Shown here piece by piece: positions 2,894 to 34,322 of a stretch of 64,000 bases of DNA. Under the pieces are notes generated by a model. The model worked only from the letters and a program-made list of their open reading frames with translations, did not search any database and had not been told where the DNA came from. Positions within the stretch are counted from its first letter, which is position 1, and the number at the start of each line of letters is the position of its first letter. The stretch comes from Thioclava dalianensis. Its GTDB lineage: Bacteria; Pseudomonadota; Alphaproteobacteria; Rhodobacterales; Rhodobacteraceae. A program made the translations under genes and the position numbers. The DNA lies in NCBI RefSeq assembly GCF_000715505.1, contig NZ_JHEH01000001.1, positions 1 through 64,000 of the forward strand, given 5' to 3'.

Positions 2894-3124
2894 TTAGGAC
2901 TGGTCGACCAAAGCGCTCTGTAGGGCGCAGATCATCTCTGCCGCGCTGCCATATGCACCGATAATCTCTTCCTGAAATGCGGATTTCCCGTTGTGAGCTG
3001 CGACAATCCATCCACCGTTCGGAGCCCCTCGAAGCAAGAGCTGATCGGTCTTGGAAAAAACGCCAATCATCGGCTTTTCATTGGTGTGGCGCGATGTCTC
3101 GCTGGTCGCAATTTCTTCAGTCAT
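2894..3124 (-). CDS. Hypothetical phage protein, first gene of the leftward operon, 76 aa
   Basis: The protein has no recognised family. It contains a segment NGGWIVAAHNGKSAF in the middle and a helical C-terminus ending in DQS. The ribosome site AGGAG lies 8 bases before the ATG. It is the first gene after the regulatory region at 3155-3236, so its promoter probably drives the whole eight-gene operon and the tRNA-Arg. Confidence 0.6.
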   Translation of the reverse strand: MTEEIATSETSRHTNEKPMIGVFSKTDQLLLRGAPNGGWIVAAHNGKSAFQEEIIGAYGSAAEMICALQSALVDQS

Positions 3125-3154
3125 TTAGTCGGCTCTCCTATGTTCCATTGTTGC

Positions 3155-3236
3155 GCTTTCATATCATTTACAGAAAGCACATTCTGTTGACGCTTGCAAT
3201 TGCTTTCTGTACTGAGAAAGAAAGCGGACAGAAAGC
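3155..3236. promoter_or_regulatory. Array of GAAAGC half-sites between divergent phage operons
   Basis: Five GAAAGC/GCTTTC units are seen: GCTTTC 3155-3160, GAAAGC 3173-3178, GCTTTC 3202-3207, GAAAGC 3220-3225 and GAAAGC 3231-3236. The second and third lie in a longer inverted pair, ACAGAAAGC (3170-3178) and GCTTTCTGT (3202-3210). The array sits between the leftward small-gene operon and the rightward gene at 3244 and overlaps a predicted promoter. This is the layout of a repressor or activator operator; the regulator itself is not identified. Confidence 0.55.
3187..3215 (+). promoter_or_regulatory. Predicted rightward promoter
   Basis: TTGACG (3187-3192) and TACTGA (3210-3215) are 17 bases apart, upstream of the gene starting at 3244. 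The -35 box is good and the -10 box is weak. The spacer contains the GCTTTCTG operator arm, so a bound regulator would cover the promoter. Confidence 0.5.
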
Positions 3237-3243
3237 GAGTGGG

Positions 3244-3723
3244 ATGGACATTGATAAGAAAGAGGACCCGTTCAACGGGAAATGGGCTGTCGTTACCGTC
3301 AATGAACGCCTGCCATCGAGGGGTGAGCAGATTGCCCGGGCCCGCGCTTGGGGCGTCACTGAATCGATGCTGGGGCGCAAGGATATCTCAGCACTGATCG
3401 TGGATGATGTGACCGGAAAGAGAACGACGAACTGGCCGGGGCTGCTCAAGAAGCGCGCGGTTTTCCTCGACGTGATGGGCACGGTATTGCCTGCCGGTGA
3501 TCAGGTTTTTTTCGCCACGCCGCTCTGCATCGGGTTCTCGCCCGCGCATGCGCGCCAGACCATCGAGCGCATTTGGTCGTGCGGGATGCTGGTTTACGTT
3601 CACACGGTGCGCGGCAACGGGTCAGCTCTCTATGAGGCTGGCGACGATATCACCGACTTGCTGGATATGGTGGCCGCAGAGCAGAATGCCGCCAATGTTC
3701 GCAAGTCCCGCAACAAGGTCTAA
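3244..3723 (+). CDS. Hypothetical phage protein, 159 aa
   Basis: I choose the ATG at 3244, which lies downstream of the promoter and operator region; the frame is open further upstream but would cross those elements. The protein is soluble and has no signal peptide or obvious membrane segment. It has a basic middle region (GKRTTNWPGLLKKRA) and ends in a basic tail. No family is recognised. Its place next to the operator array suggests a regulatory or early function, which is inference only. The next gene follows after 14 bases with the ribosome site CAGGAG. Confidence 0.6.
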   Translation: MDIDKKEDPFNGKWAVVTVNERLPSRGEQIARARAWGVTESMLGRKDISALIVDDVTGKRTTNWPGLLKKRAVFLDVMGTVLPAGDQVFFATPLCIGFSPAHARQTIERIWSCGMLVYVHTVRGNGSALYEAGDDITDLLDMVAAEQNAANVRKSRNKV

Positions 3724-6417: not shown

Positions 6418-6458
6418 GCATCCCACGCTCGGATGGCGATCTGGGCAGATGGAAATAC

Positions 6459-6535
6459 GCGGTTGTAGCTCAGTTGGTTAGAGTACCGGCCTGTCACGCC
6501 GGGGGTCGCGGGTTCGAGCCCCGTCAACCGCGCCA
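6459..6535 (+). tRNA. tRNA-Asp (anticodon GUC), copy 1 of 4
   Basis: The sequence begins GCGGTTGTAGCTCAG and ends CAACCGCGCCA, with perfect acceptor pairing, an anticodon loop CTGTCAC and an encoded CCA. It is identical to copies 2-4. Confidence 0.97.
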
Positions 6536-6562
6536 CCATCCAGATCGCCCCGAGTGTTGTGC

Positions 6563-6639
6563 GCGGTTGTAGCTCAGTTGGTTAGAGTACCGGCCTGTCA
6601 CGCCGGGGGTCGCGGGTTCGAGCCCCGTCAACCGCGCCA
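6563..6639 (+). tRNA. tRNA-Asp (anticodon GUC), copy 2 of 4
   Basis: Identical to copy 1, placed 104 bases downstream after a 27-base spacer. Confidence 0.97.
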
Positions 6640-6666
6640 CCATCCAGATCGCCCCGAGTGTTGTGC

Positions 6667-6743
6667 GCGGTTGTAGCTCAGTTGGTTAGAGTACCGGCCT
6701 GTCACGCCGGGGGTCGCGGGTTCGAGCCCCGTCAACCGCGCCA
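6667..6743 (+). tRNA. tRNA-Asp (anticodon GUC), copy 3 of 4
   Basis: Identical to copy 1, again with a 104-base period and the same 27-base spacer. Confidence 0.97.
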
Positions 6744-6770
6744 CCATCCAGATCGCCCCGAGTGTTGTGC

Positions 6771-6847
6771 GCGGTTGTAGCTCAGTTGGTTAGAGTACCG
6801 GCCTGTCACGCCGGGGGTCGCGGGTTCGAGCCCCGTCAACCGCGCCA
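6771..6847 (+). tRNA. tRNA-Asp (anticodon GUC), copy 4 of 4
   Basis: Identical to copy 1. It is followed by a different sequence, leading to the hairpin at 6873-6888. Confidence 0.97.
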
Positions 6848-6872
6848 CTTCTTTCCCTGTTTCGCTTGAGAT

Positions 6873-20402: not shown

Positions 20403-20618
20403 GGCACCTCCATTTGATGCTTTTTCGTCATCGGTCAAACCGGCGGTGTTGGCAAGAGCGGCCATTCCTCTGGGCCCCACACGAAACCCTCTCGATCTGT
20501 CACGCAGCTGTTACGCGTCGTCATGGAACTGGAAGCAATTTCAGTCGCTTCCTCGACACAGTCATGCCGCTTCGTTCGACCTCCTGGCCGCCCGATGCGG
20601 GCGCACGAGGAGGAACCC

Positions 20619-21863
20619 ATGTCGATATTTCAACCGCTGAAGGAGCTCACGCCCGTTCAGCGAAATACCGTTCTGGCCGCCTATCTGGGCTGGCTTCTTG
20701 ATGCATTCGACTTCTTCATCTTGGTCTTCGTGCTCAAAGATGTGGCCAAAGAGTTCAACACCACGATCGAGGCGGCGTCGGTTGCGATTTTCCTCACGCT
20801 GGCCGCGCGTCCGGTGGGCGCGTTCCTCTTCGGGATGGCGGCGGATCGTTGGGGGCGCAGGATCGTCCTGATGATCAACATCCTTGCCTTCTCGGCTCTG
20901 GAATTCGCCTCCGGTCTGTCCACCTCGCTTGCGATGCTGATCGTGCTGCGCACGCTTTACGGTGTGGCGATGGGGGGCGAATGGGGCGTGGGCGCTTCAC
21001 TTGCGATGGAGACGATCCCGCCCAAGGCGCGCGGTGCGGTCTCGGGTATCCTTCAGGCGGGCTACCCTTCGGGCTATCTTGCGGCCTCGATCGTGTTCTT
21101 CGCGCTCTACCCGGTGATCGGTTGGCGGGGCATGTTCTTCGTGGGGGCGCTGCCGGCGCTGCTGGTGTTCTTCCTGCGTCGCAAAATCCCGGAATCCCCG
21201 AGCTTTGAGCCGCTCGCAACCCGGGCCGCAGGGCCGTCGCTCGGAAGTCAGCTCAAGCGCAATCTGGGGCTGCTGATCTGGGTTGTACTGATGATGACCG
21301 CGTTCAACTTCTTCAGCCATGGCACGCAGGATGTCTATCCGACCTTCCTCGAGACCCAGCGCGGCTTTGACAGCCATGTCACCGGCGCCATCGCGATCTT
21401 CTATAATATCGGCGCGATCATTGGCGGCATCGTCTTCGGGGCGTGGTCGCAGAAAATCGGTCGTCGGAAGGCCATTGTGATCGCATCGCTTCTGGTGCTG
21501 CCCTCGGCATGGCTTTGGGTCTATGCGCCGGGCACCGTTCTGCTGGCCGTTGGGGCCTTCCTCGTGCAGTTCTTCGTGCAAGGCGCGTGGGGCGTGGTGC
21601 CTGCGCATCTCAACGAGCTCTCACCGCAGGGCATGCGCGGGACCTTCCCCGGTACGGCCTATCAACTGGGCAACCTGATCGCTTCGGGCAACGCGACGCT
21701 GCTGACCGGGTTGGCTGCGCATTGGACGCAGGCCGGGCAGCCTGATTACGGGCGCGCCATGCTGGTCGAGACGATCATCGTGGCCATCGCCGTGGCAGCA
21801 CTTGCGGGCTTCGGGATCGAGCGGAAAGAGCGTGTCTTCTCAAGCGATCCGCACGCGGAATAA
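20619..21863 (+). CDS. MFS transporter, carboxylate/sialate:H+ symporter-like
   Basis: The 414-residue protein has the 12-segment major facilitator layout. Motif A is seen as [10 protein letters not shown] after the second segment, and the repeat-half motif as [12 protein letters not shown]. The opening [21 protein letters not shown] resembles lactate/sialic acid (JEN/NanT-like) symporters, suggesting uptake of a small carboxylate by proton symport. I use the ATG at 20619 after GAGGAGGAACCC; the frame continues upstream without a ribosome site. The exact substrate is open. Confidence 0.88.
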
Positions 21864-22582
21864 GGCCTGCCACCGGGCGCGCGTGCCCAGCTAAGAGAGC
21901 GTGAGGGGCAGGGCGCGCGCCACAGCTCCCAAAAGAAAAGGGGGGGCCGTTTGGCCCCCCGGTTTCGATCAGAACGGGATTTCGTCGTCGAAATCCGAAC
22001 GGCCACCGCCGCCCGAGGACGAGCCGCCTTGGCTTCCGCCCGAAGGCCCGCCAAAGCCGCCGCCTCGTCGAAATCCGAACGGCCACCGCCGCCCGAGGAC
22101 GAGCCGCCTTGGCTTCCGCCCGAAGGCCCGCCATAGCCGCCGCCGTCATCATAGCCGCCCGAGGACGGGCCGCCATAGCCACCCGGGGCGCTGCCACCGC
22201 CGCCACCGCCGCCACCGCTGCCGCCACCATCGCGCCCGTCAAGCATCGTCAGCTCGGAGCGGAAGGGCCGCAGCACGACCTCGGTCGAATAGCGGTCCTG
22301 ACCCGACTGGTCTTGCCATTTGCGCGTCTCAAGCTGGCCCTCGATATAGACCTTGGAGCCCTTGCGCAGATATTGCTCGGCCACTTTGGCCAGCGGCTCG
22401 GAAAAGATCGCAACCGAATGCCATTCCGTGCGCTCCTTGCGCTCCCCCGAATTGCGGTCGCGCCAGGTCTCGGAGGTCGCGATGCGCAGGTTGCACACCT
22501 TGCCCCCGTTGGAAAAGGTCCGCACTTCCGGGTCGCGGCCCAGATTGCCGATCAAAATGACCTTGTTGACGCTGCCTGCCAT
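21746..22582 (-). CDS. ssb: Single-stranded DNA-binding protein, C-terminus frameshifted by an 80-bp tandem duplication
   Basis: The N-terminal OB fold ([20 protein letters not shown] to about residue 115) is normal, and a Gly-rich linker follows. The start is the ATG at 22582 after AGGAGGTGCGC. SSB tails should end in an acidic tip such as DDEIPF, which recruits repair and replication proteins. That tip and its stop are present at 21969-21986. However, an 80-bp duplication (21985-22144) puts it out of frame with the start. The uninterrupted frame instead reads [21 protein letters not shown]-like residues on to 21746, giving 278 aa. It could be real, or a single-base error in an 81-bp in-frame duplication. 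Confidence 0.9.
21931..21960 (-). terminator. Rho-independent terminator downstream of ssb
   Basis: On the minus strand GGGGGGCC-AAAC-GGCCCCCC (21941-21960) is followed by CTTTTCTTTT (21931-21940). It lies just after the stop codon of the canonical ssb end at 21969. That fits an ssb gene originally ending there, since the long shifted frame runs straight through the hairpin. Confidence 0.8.
21985..22144. repeat. 80-bp tandem duplication inside ssb
   Basis: Unit 1 (21985-22064) and unit 2 (22065-22144) both start TCGTCGAAATCCGAACGG and differ at one base (CCAAAG versus CCATAG near the end). The unit length of 80 is not a multiple of three. In the canonical frame each unit would encode a [17 protein letters not shown]-type linker and RSDFD. 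Confidence 0.92.
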
Positions 22583-33951: not shown

Positions 33952-34277
33952 AAAGGGAAAAGGTGCAGGATTCTGTTGCAAGGCTCCTGCGGGCCCCGCC
34001 TTACGCGGCTAAGCGCAAGGAGTTAGGTTTCGATCTCTCGAACTGCTTACGCAGCAAGAGCGACCGGAGCACGGTTGTCGTTGGCAACTGTACAAATCGC
34101 ACCGATGACGGTGGTAGCTCACCGGGACAAAGCTTACCCCTTTAGACGTTCGTCGATCCTATTTCGGCCCCATTCTCCCCCAACGAGGGTGGTTTGGTGG
34201 AGCCGCCGGGTACCGCCCCCGGGTCCGATCCGCTTATTACGAGCGCGTTTATGTCCATAGTCCCCACGAGTGGGAAC
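33952..34277 (-). ncRNA. ssrA: Permuted two-piece tmRNA (trans-translation RNA)
   Basis: The tag frame at 34047-34085 reads ANDNRAPVALAA and a stop, a typical alphaproteobacterial tag for stalled-ribosome rescue. The gene is circularly permuted: the acceptor piece comes first, ending TCCACCA at 34195, then a 23-base spacer (34172-34194), then the coding piece starting GGGGCCG at 34171. GGGGCCG pairs with CGGCTCC in the acceptor piece, with one G-U pair. The T-arm CCGGG-GGCGGTA-CCCGG is present. A hairpin (33965-33990) followed by a T-rich stretch marks the 3' end. The outer ends are estimates. Confidence 0.93.
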
Positions 34278-34283
34278 GAGACA

Positions 34284-34312
34284 GATATAGGCGGCACGGC
34301 GCGGGGGATCAA
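34284..34312 (-). promoter_or_regulatory. Predicted tmRNA promoter
   Basis: On the minus strand TTGATC (34307-34312) and TATATC (34284-34289) are 17 bases apart, placing the transcript start near 34277. Confidence 0.65.
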
Positions 34313-34322
34313 GGGGGGCAGA

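Follow-up and report, generated by a model that had tools for sequence, protein, structure and literature searches.

A tandem duplication in the glycine-rich linker of a Thioclava dalianensis ssb gene places its acidic tip out of frame as recorded, possibly through a base missing at the joint between copies

The window analysed here is the whole stretch of 64,000 nucleotides at positions 1 to 64,000 of contig NZ_JHEH01000001.1 from Thioclava dalianensis (Rhodobacteraceae; assembly GCF_000715505.1), a draft genome of 4,179,056 bases in 98 contigs with an estimated completeness of 99.99%. One of its minus-strand genes, ssb, encodes an SSB domain (Pfam PF00436; residues 5-105, E 1.3e-37 in a domain search) followed by a glycine-rich linker, with DNA for the canonical acidic tip, DDEIPF, and its stop codon lying downstream (Table 1). 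According to an excerpt of PMC7145534, the linkers of bacterial SSB proteins differ in length, spanning about 25 to 125 residues. Within the linker of this gene, two 80-bp units stand head to tail at a spacing of 80 and an identity of 79/80, as the preliminary description of the locus had reported. The same description had placed the intact tip and stop in a frame other than that of the start codon; we confirm this as a phase of +2, and correct the coordinates given (21969-21986 cover DEIPF plus the stop, the full element running from 21989 to 21969). The first unit is read as linker in the phase of the start codon, and the second unit, together with the tip, occupies the other phase. As recorded, the reading frame thus lacks an acidic tip at its C-terminus, and other sequence carries it to its end at 21746.

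Table 1. Features of the ssb locus (positions in the window; features listed in gene direction)
Feature	Position	Strand	Remarks
ssb open frame	21746..22582	(-)	ATG 22582, first stop 21748-21746, 278 codons
N-terminal DNA-binding (OB-fold) part	22229..22582	(-)	118 aa, intact; at most 97% identity to same-genus genomes
First 80-bp unit	22065..22144	(-)	upstream copy in gene direction
Joint between 80-bp units	22054..22065	(-)	phase lost here; sole substitution 10-11 bases beyond
Second 80-bp unit	21985..22064	(-)	one substitution, 22054 vs 22134
Canonical acidic tip DDEIPF and stop	21969..21989	(-)	intact, phase +2 relative to start codon
Terminator-like hairpin after ssb	21931..21960	(-)	8-pair stem 21960-21941, then T-rich tail

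The array has a G+C content of 74% and includes 22 GGC triplets; its TRF score of 313 ranks second among the six TRF rows of the window. A separate tandem array was observed at 6458-6848, where four tRNA-Asp (gtc) genes occupy 104-bp units (3.8 copies, 100% matches between copies), representing either an unusually perfect amplification or a feature of the assembly.

Beyond the tip, the 51-nt terminator stretch has a folding energy of -26.6 kcal/mol (z -2.88), and the terminator scan that located the stem yields two terminator-like sites here against a mean of 1.1 in shuffled sequences. The earlier proposal that the shifted frame reads through this terminator is borne out: the frame of the start codon crosses the hairpin, remains open to 21746, and on its way enters DNA antisense to a neighbouring open frame (20523-21863) that we take to encode a membrane transporter. 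Since the open frame includes the terminator, the likelier result of a real break would be a stop-less message, and so a low level of SSB; the stable tip-less protein suggested earlier is the less probable outcome. Stop-less messages are handled by tmRNA, and under a real break many ssb messages, terminated at the hairpin with no in-frame stop yet reached, should go to that pathway. The window carries a minus-strand tmRNA gene (about 33956-34316), whose tag ARAGORN reads as ANDNRAPVALAA.

Comparison with relatives placed the altered phase in context. Within the genus, each of the 15 other genomes retrieved by the searches has the tip in frame. So do 43 of the 45 genomes examined that belong to other genera of the same family; the remaining two (L157, L183) are cut by contig ends. 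Taken together, 58 of the 60 same-family genomes besides that of the window have the tip in frame and two are cut. These counts concern the family, the ssb search having also covered 40 genomes of other families. A second set, comprising 80 loci kept from 584 stretches of a contig database that encode a relative, and overlapping the first genome set (L062 is G015), gave the same picture, with the tip in frame at the end of 78/80 loci, one locus cut (L096) and one with a different ending (L081). At the latter, from Paracoccus aminovorans strain HPD-2 (match 3001-3351), DDSIPF is followed by six residues before the stop, and the tip is not terminal as recorded. Among the loci scanned for an out-of-phase tip, only that of the window has one. 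The frame break is private to one assembly among the relatives examined, in line with the initial suspicion of a recent change or an error. A search for a second genome of the species found none: the nearest of the 15 other same-genus genomes is 84% identical over the ssb gene, and the contig listing may omit records of this genome or very close ones. A search of plasmids gave, among the matches listed, a best identity of 80.7% over 47% of the query, and a literature search found no report of a frameshifted ssb with a tandem duplication.

One way in which the recorded sequence could still serve the cell is a frameshift that recovers the tip, as also raised in the preliminary description; we considered programmed -1 slippage, ribosomal or transcriptional, giving a fraction of the protein its tip. 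The phase of the tip is open from 22148 to the tip, and a shift in this interval would reach it. Between 22148 and 21989, however, the start frame contains no heptamer of the X XXY YYZ type, and homopolymers of at least four bases from which a shift could reach the tip are likewise missing; there are five weaker slip sites in this stretch, whose second half consists of three identical bases. Nor are the overlapping frames of a programmed -1 frameshift gene conserved in the 60 same-family genomes, 58 of which have the tip in frame while two are cut. Lacking a canonical heptamer, a homopolymer of at least four bases and conservation in the relatives examined, a slippage mechanism appears extremely improbable.

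We surveyed linkers for close repeats of at least 24 bp, with at least 90% identity and a spacing of 24-120 bp, in 140 cases made up of the window and sets of 29, 80 and 30 loci (with overlap between the sets, and with three loci truncated at contig ends). Repeats of this kind were present in 16/140 linkers, or 15/139 when the window is set aside. Their spacing is a multiple of three in 15 of the 16, the sole exception being the spacing of 80 in the window; glycine-rich, codon-patterned DNA by itself favours multiple-of-three repeats, and the 15 cases do not amount to proof of 15 duplications. The longest close repeat among the 140 linkers is likewise that of the window, extending over 92 bp at an identity of at least 90%, with the next longest at 40 bp. 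Repeated linker modules are accordingly ordinary, a close duplication of this length is not, and a frame-breaking spacing is unique among the 140 linkers.

A near-perfect tandem repeat whose unit is not a multiple of three would alter phase with each change in copy number, and tandem repeats of about 80 bp are unstable; the array might on these grounds act as a reversible switch, expanding and contracting by slippage so that a culture mixes in-frame and out-of-frame tips. Against such a switch, none was seen in the relatives examined, and we find no sign that one has been conserved. Cells in the off state should moreover grow poorly, so that an assembly should display the on state, and the substitution between the two copies indicates that the second is not a fresh exact copy. 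We judge this explanation very unlikely.

The two departures between the copies, namely the loss of phase and the single substitution, both lie at most 12 bases from the joint, an arrangement reproduced in 1.6% of simulations with two random sites, in a test picked after the data were seen. In 14% of simulations, two random sites in the array lay no more than 11 bases apart. This clustering fits an error in joining the copies, or one complex cellular event, and fits a fresh exact duplication less well. Two further approaches to the origin of the joint were set aside. Microhomology was considered as a means of telling an 80-bp from an 81-bp event: the recorded breakpoints share 0 bases, like those of 41% of random linker pairs, so that the two events are not told apart in this way. 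A unit one base longer would have four shared breakpoint bases (counted by eye), and at least four are shared in about 9% of random pairs, lending weak support to the longer unit. Copying of the joint from elsewhere in the genome was likewise rejected, its 22-mer matching itself (0 mismatches) and three places at 3 mismatches, with two places for a reversed control.

The general accuracy of the assembly was gauged by screening for other broken frames. Comparison with genome G007 (contig C1, bases 1-264000; identity of at least 60%) matched 57/211 frames over 64,116 aligned bases, some of the matched frames being antisense, so that real genes number fewer than 57; it raised four flags, each of which was traced to an antisense frame overlying an intact gene or to an intergenic gap. 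The reverse direction (69/203 frames, 73,932 bases) raised none. A comparison restricted to the window, at an identity threshold of 45%, drew on 17, 14 and 10 frames of G007, G010 and G003, respectively, and raised two flags, both in non-coding frames: one was an upstream extension read in the wrong frame, and the other lay antisense to an open frame. With all flags explained, a general excess of indel errors in the assembly can be rejected, no genuine frameshift having been found elsewhere in the stretches compared. The screen is coarse: the overlapping matches of the two ssb phases kept it from flagging the ssb break itself, and for a tandem repeat of 74% G+C it is hardly informative. The absence of another genuine frameshift under this coarse screen favours a real break, and an assembly that is accurate elsewhere counts against an error at ssb. 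An excerpt of PMC4787001 names GGC and inverted repeats as error sites of the Illumina GAII (citing Nakamura et al.), and puts Illumina deletions in one data set at about 5e-6 per base, the platform behind the present assembly possibly being a different one.

The genome also encodes other SSB proteins, one of which bears out the earlier suggestion that another ssb exists elsewhere. A protein of 134 aa with the tip DDEIPF intact at its end (PF00436, E 1.9e-26) is encoded on contig C64 (7,153 bp; L140, 1555-2112), next to frames that presumably specify a metal-transporting ATPase and an ApbE-like protein; it is 44% identical to the chromosomal SSB. A further copy, reduced to its 3' part at the edge of contig C80 (L141, 3-242), also ends in DDEIPF and differs from the C64 protein in at least one residue. 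Two similar accessory ssb copies are thus located on different small contigs. Clear extra SSB matches occur in two of the 15 other genomes of the genus (G001, G015), with a weak one (E 2.3e-6) in a third, and in all three of these genomes the tip of the chromosomal gene is in frame.

Since another contig carries a complete ssb that ends in DDEIPF, the cell could tolerate loss of the chromosomal tip, and the C64 protein could be a replacement for the chromosomal SSB. The break may accordingly be real, as a fixed or recent mutation whose product is tail-less or rapidly destroyed, the second DDEIPF-bearing SSB supplying the function alone or in mixed tetramers. Both accessory copies end in the tip, and E. 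coli in vivo requires each tetramer to have two tails or more, as stated in an excerpt of PMC7145534, which is consistent with such a supply. Yet G001 and G015 combine an extra SSB with an in-frame chromosomal tip, which argues that the accessory gene does not usually replace the chromosomal one; the OB fold shows no decay (Table 1); and the low identity noted above leaves the C64 protein a candidate replacement. A real break of this sort is possible, if doubtful. The fuller claim, that the recorded sequence is real and that a free-living bacterium with a tip-less chromosomal ssb relies on an accessory SSB from another contig, or on mixed tetramers, as its hub for the proteins of replication and repair, is unlikely.

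The explanation that we prefer is that one base is missing at the joint. A tandem duplication would have lengthened the ssb linker, a kind of change seen in these glycine-rich linkers, though longer and closer here than in relatives, and the duplication itself is probably real. The normal ssb product would keep its DDEIPF tip; the recorded unit would lack, where the copies meet, the one base that makes its length divisible by three, and this missing base would reflect a local error of consensus or assembly within a GC-rich repeat and not the working state of the species. It would, on this account, be absent from the recorded sequence and not from the living genome. The in-frame tips of relatives and the multiple-of-three spacings (15/16) count in favour of an error, as do the switch of phase between the copies, the richness of the array in GC and GGC, and the clustering of departures at the joint. 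On the opposite side stand, besides the accuracy of the assembly elsewhere, the rarity of Illumina deletions and the loss of a base outside a homopolymer; a complex cellular event would also cluster changes at the joint. The lack of any other close repeat so long among the 140 linkers marks the locus as unusual apart from the lost base, and with a second ssb present a real break could be tolerated; both points also weigh against an error. In view of these considerations we give roughly even credence to an error of consensus or assembly where the copies join, and regard an error as somewhat likelier than a real mutation.

If the break is real, the locus would show in a natural setting whether the recruiting work of the tip can pass to an accessory SSB when the chromosomal SSB lacks it. 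If it is an error at the joint, which we judge the likelier case, it warns that a GC-rich repeat can make an essential gene look broken in an otherwise good draft.

Compared with the SSB of the E. coli type (PF00436), the gene described here has the same SSB domain, glycine-rich linker and DNA for a DDEIPF tip, and differs in that the tip, as recorded, is out of phase with the start. Related ssb linkers likewise hold repeated modules, but with spacings that are multiples of three and repeats of at most 40 bp, in contrast to the spacing of 80 and the 92-bp repeat of this gene. The C64 protein shares the SSB domain and DDEIPF with its chromosomal counterpart and differs from it in having a short linker and a tip that is in frame; accessory matches resembling it occur in G001, G015, G049 and other genomes.
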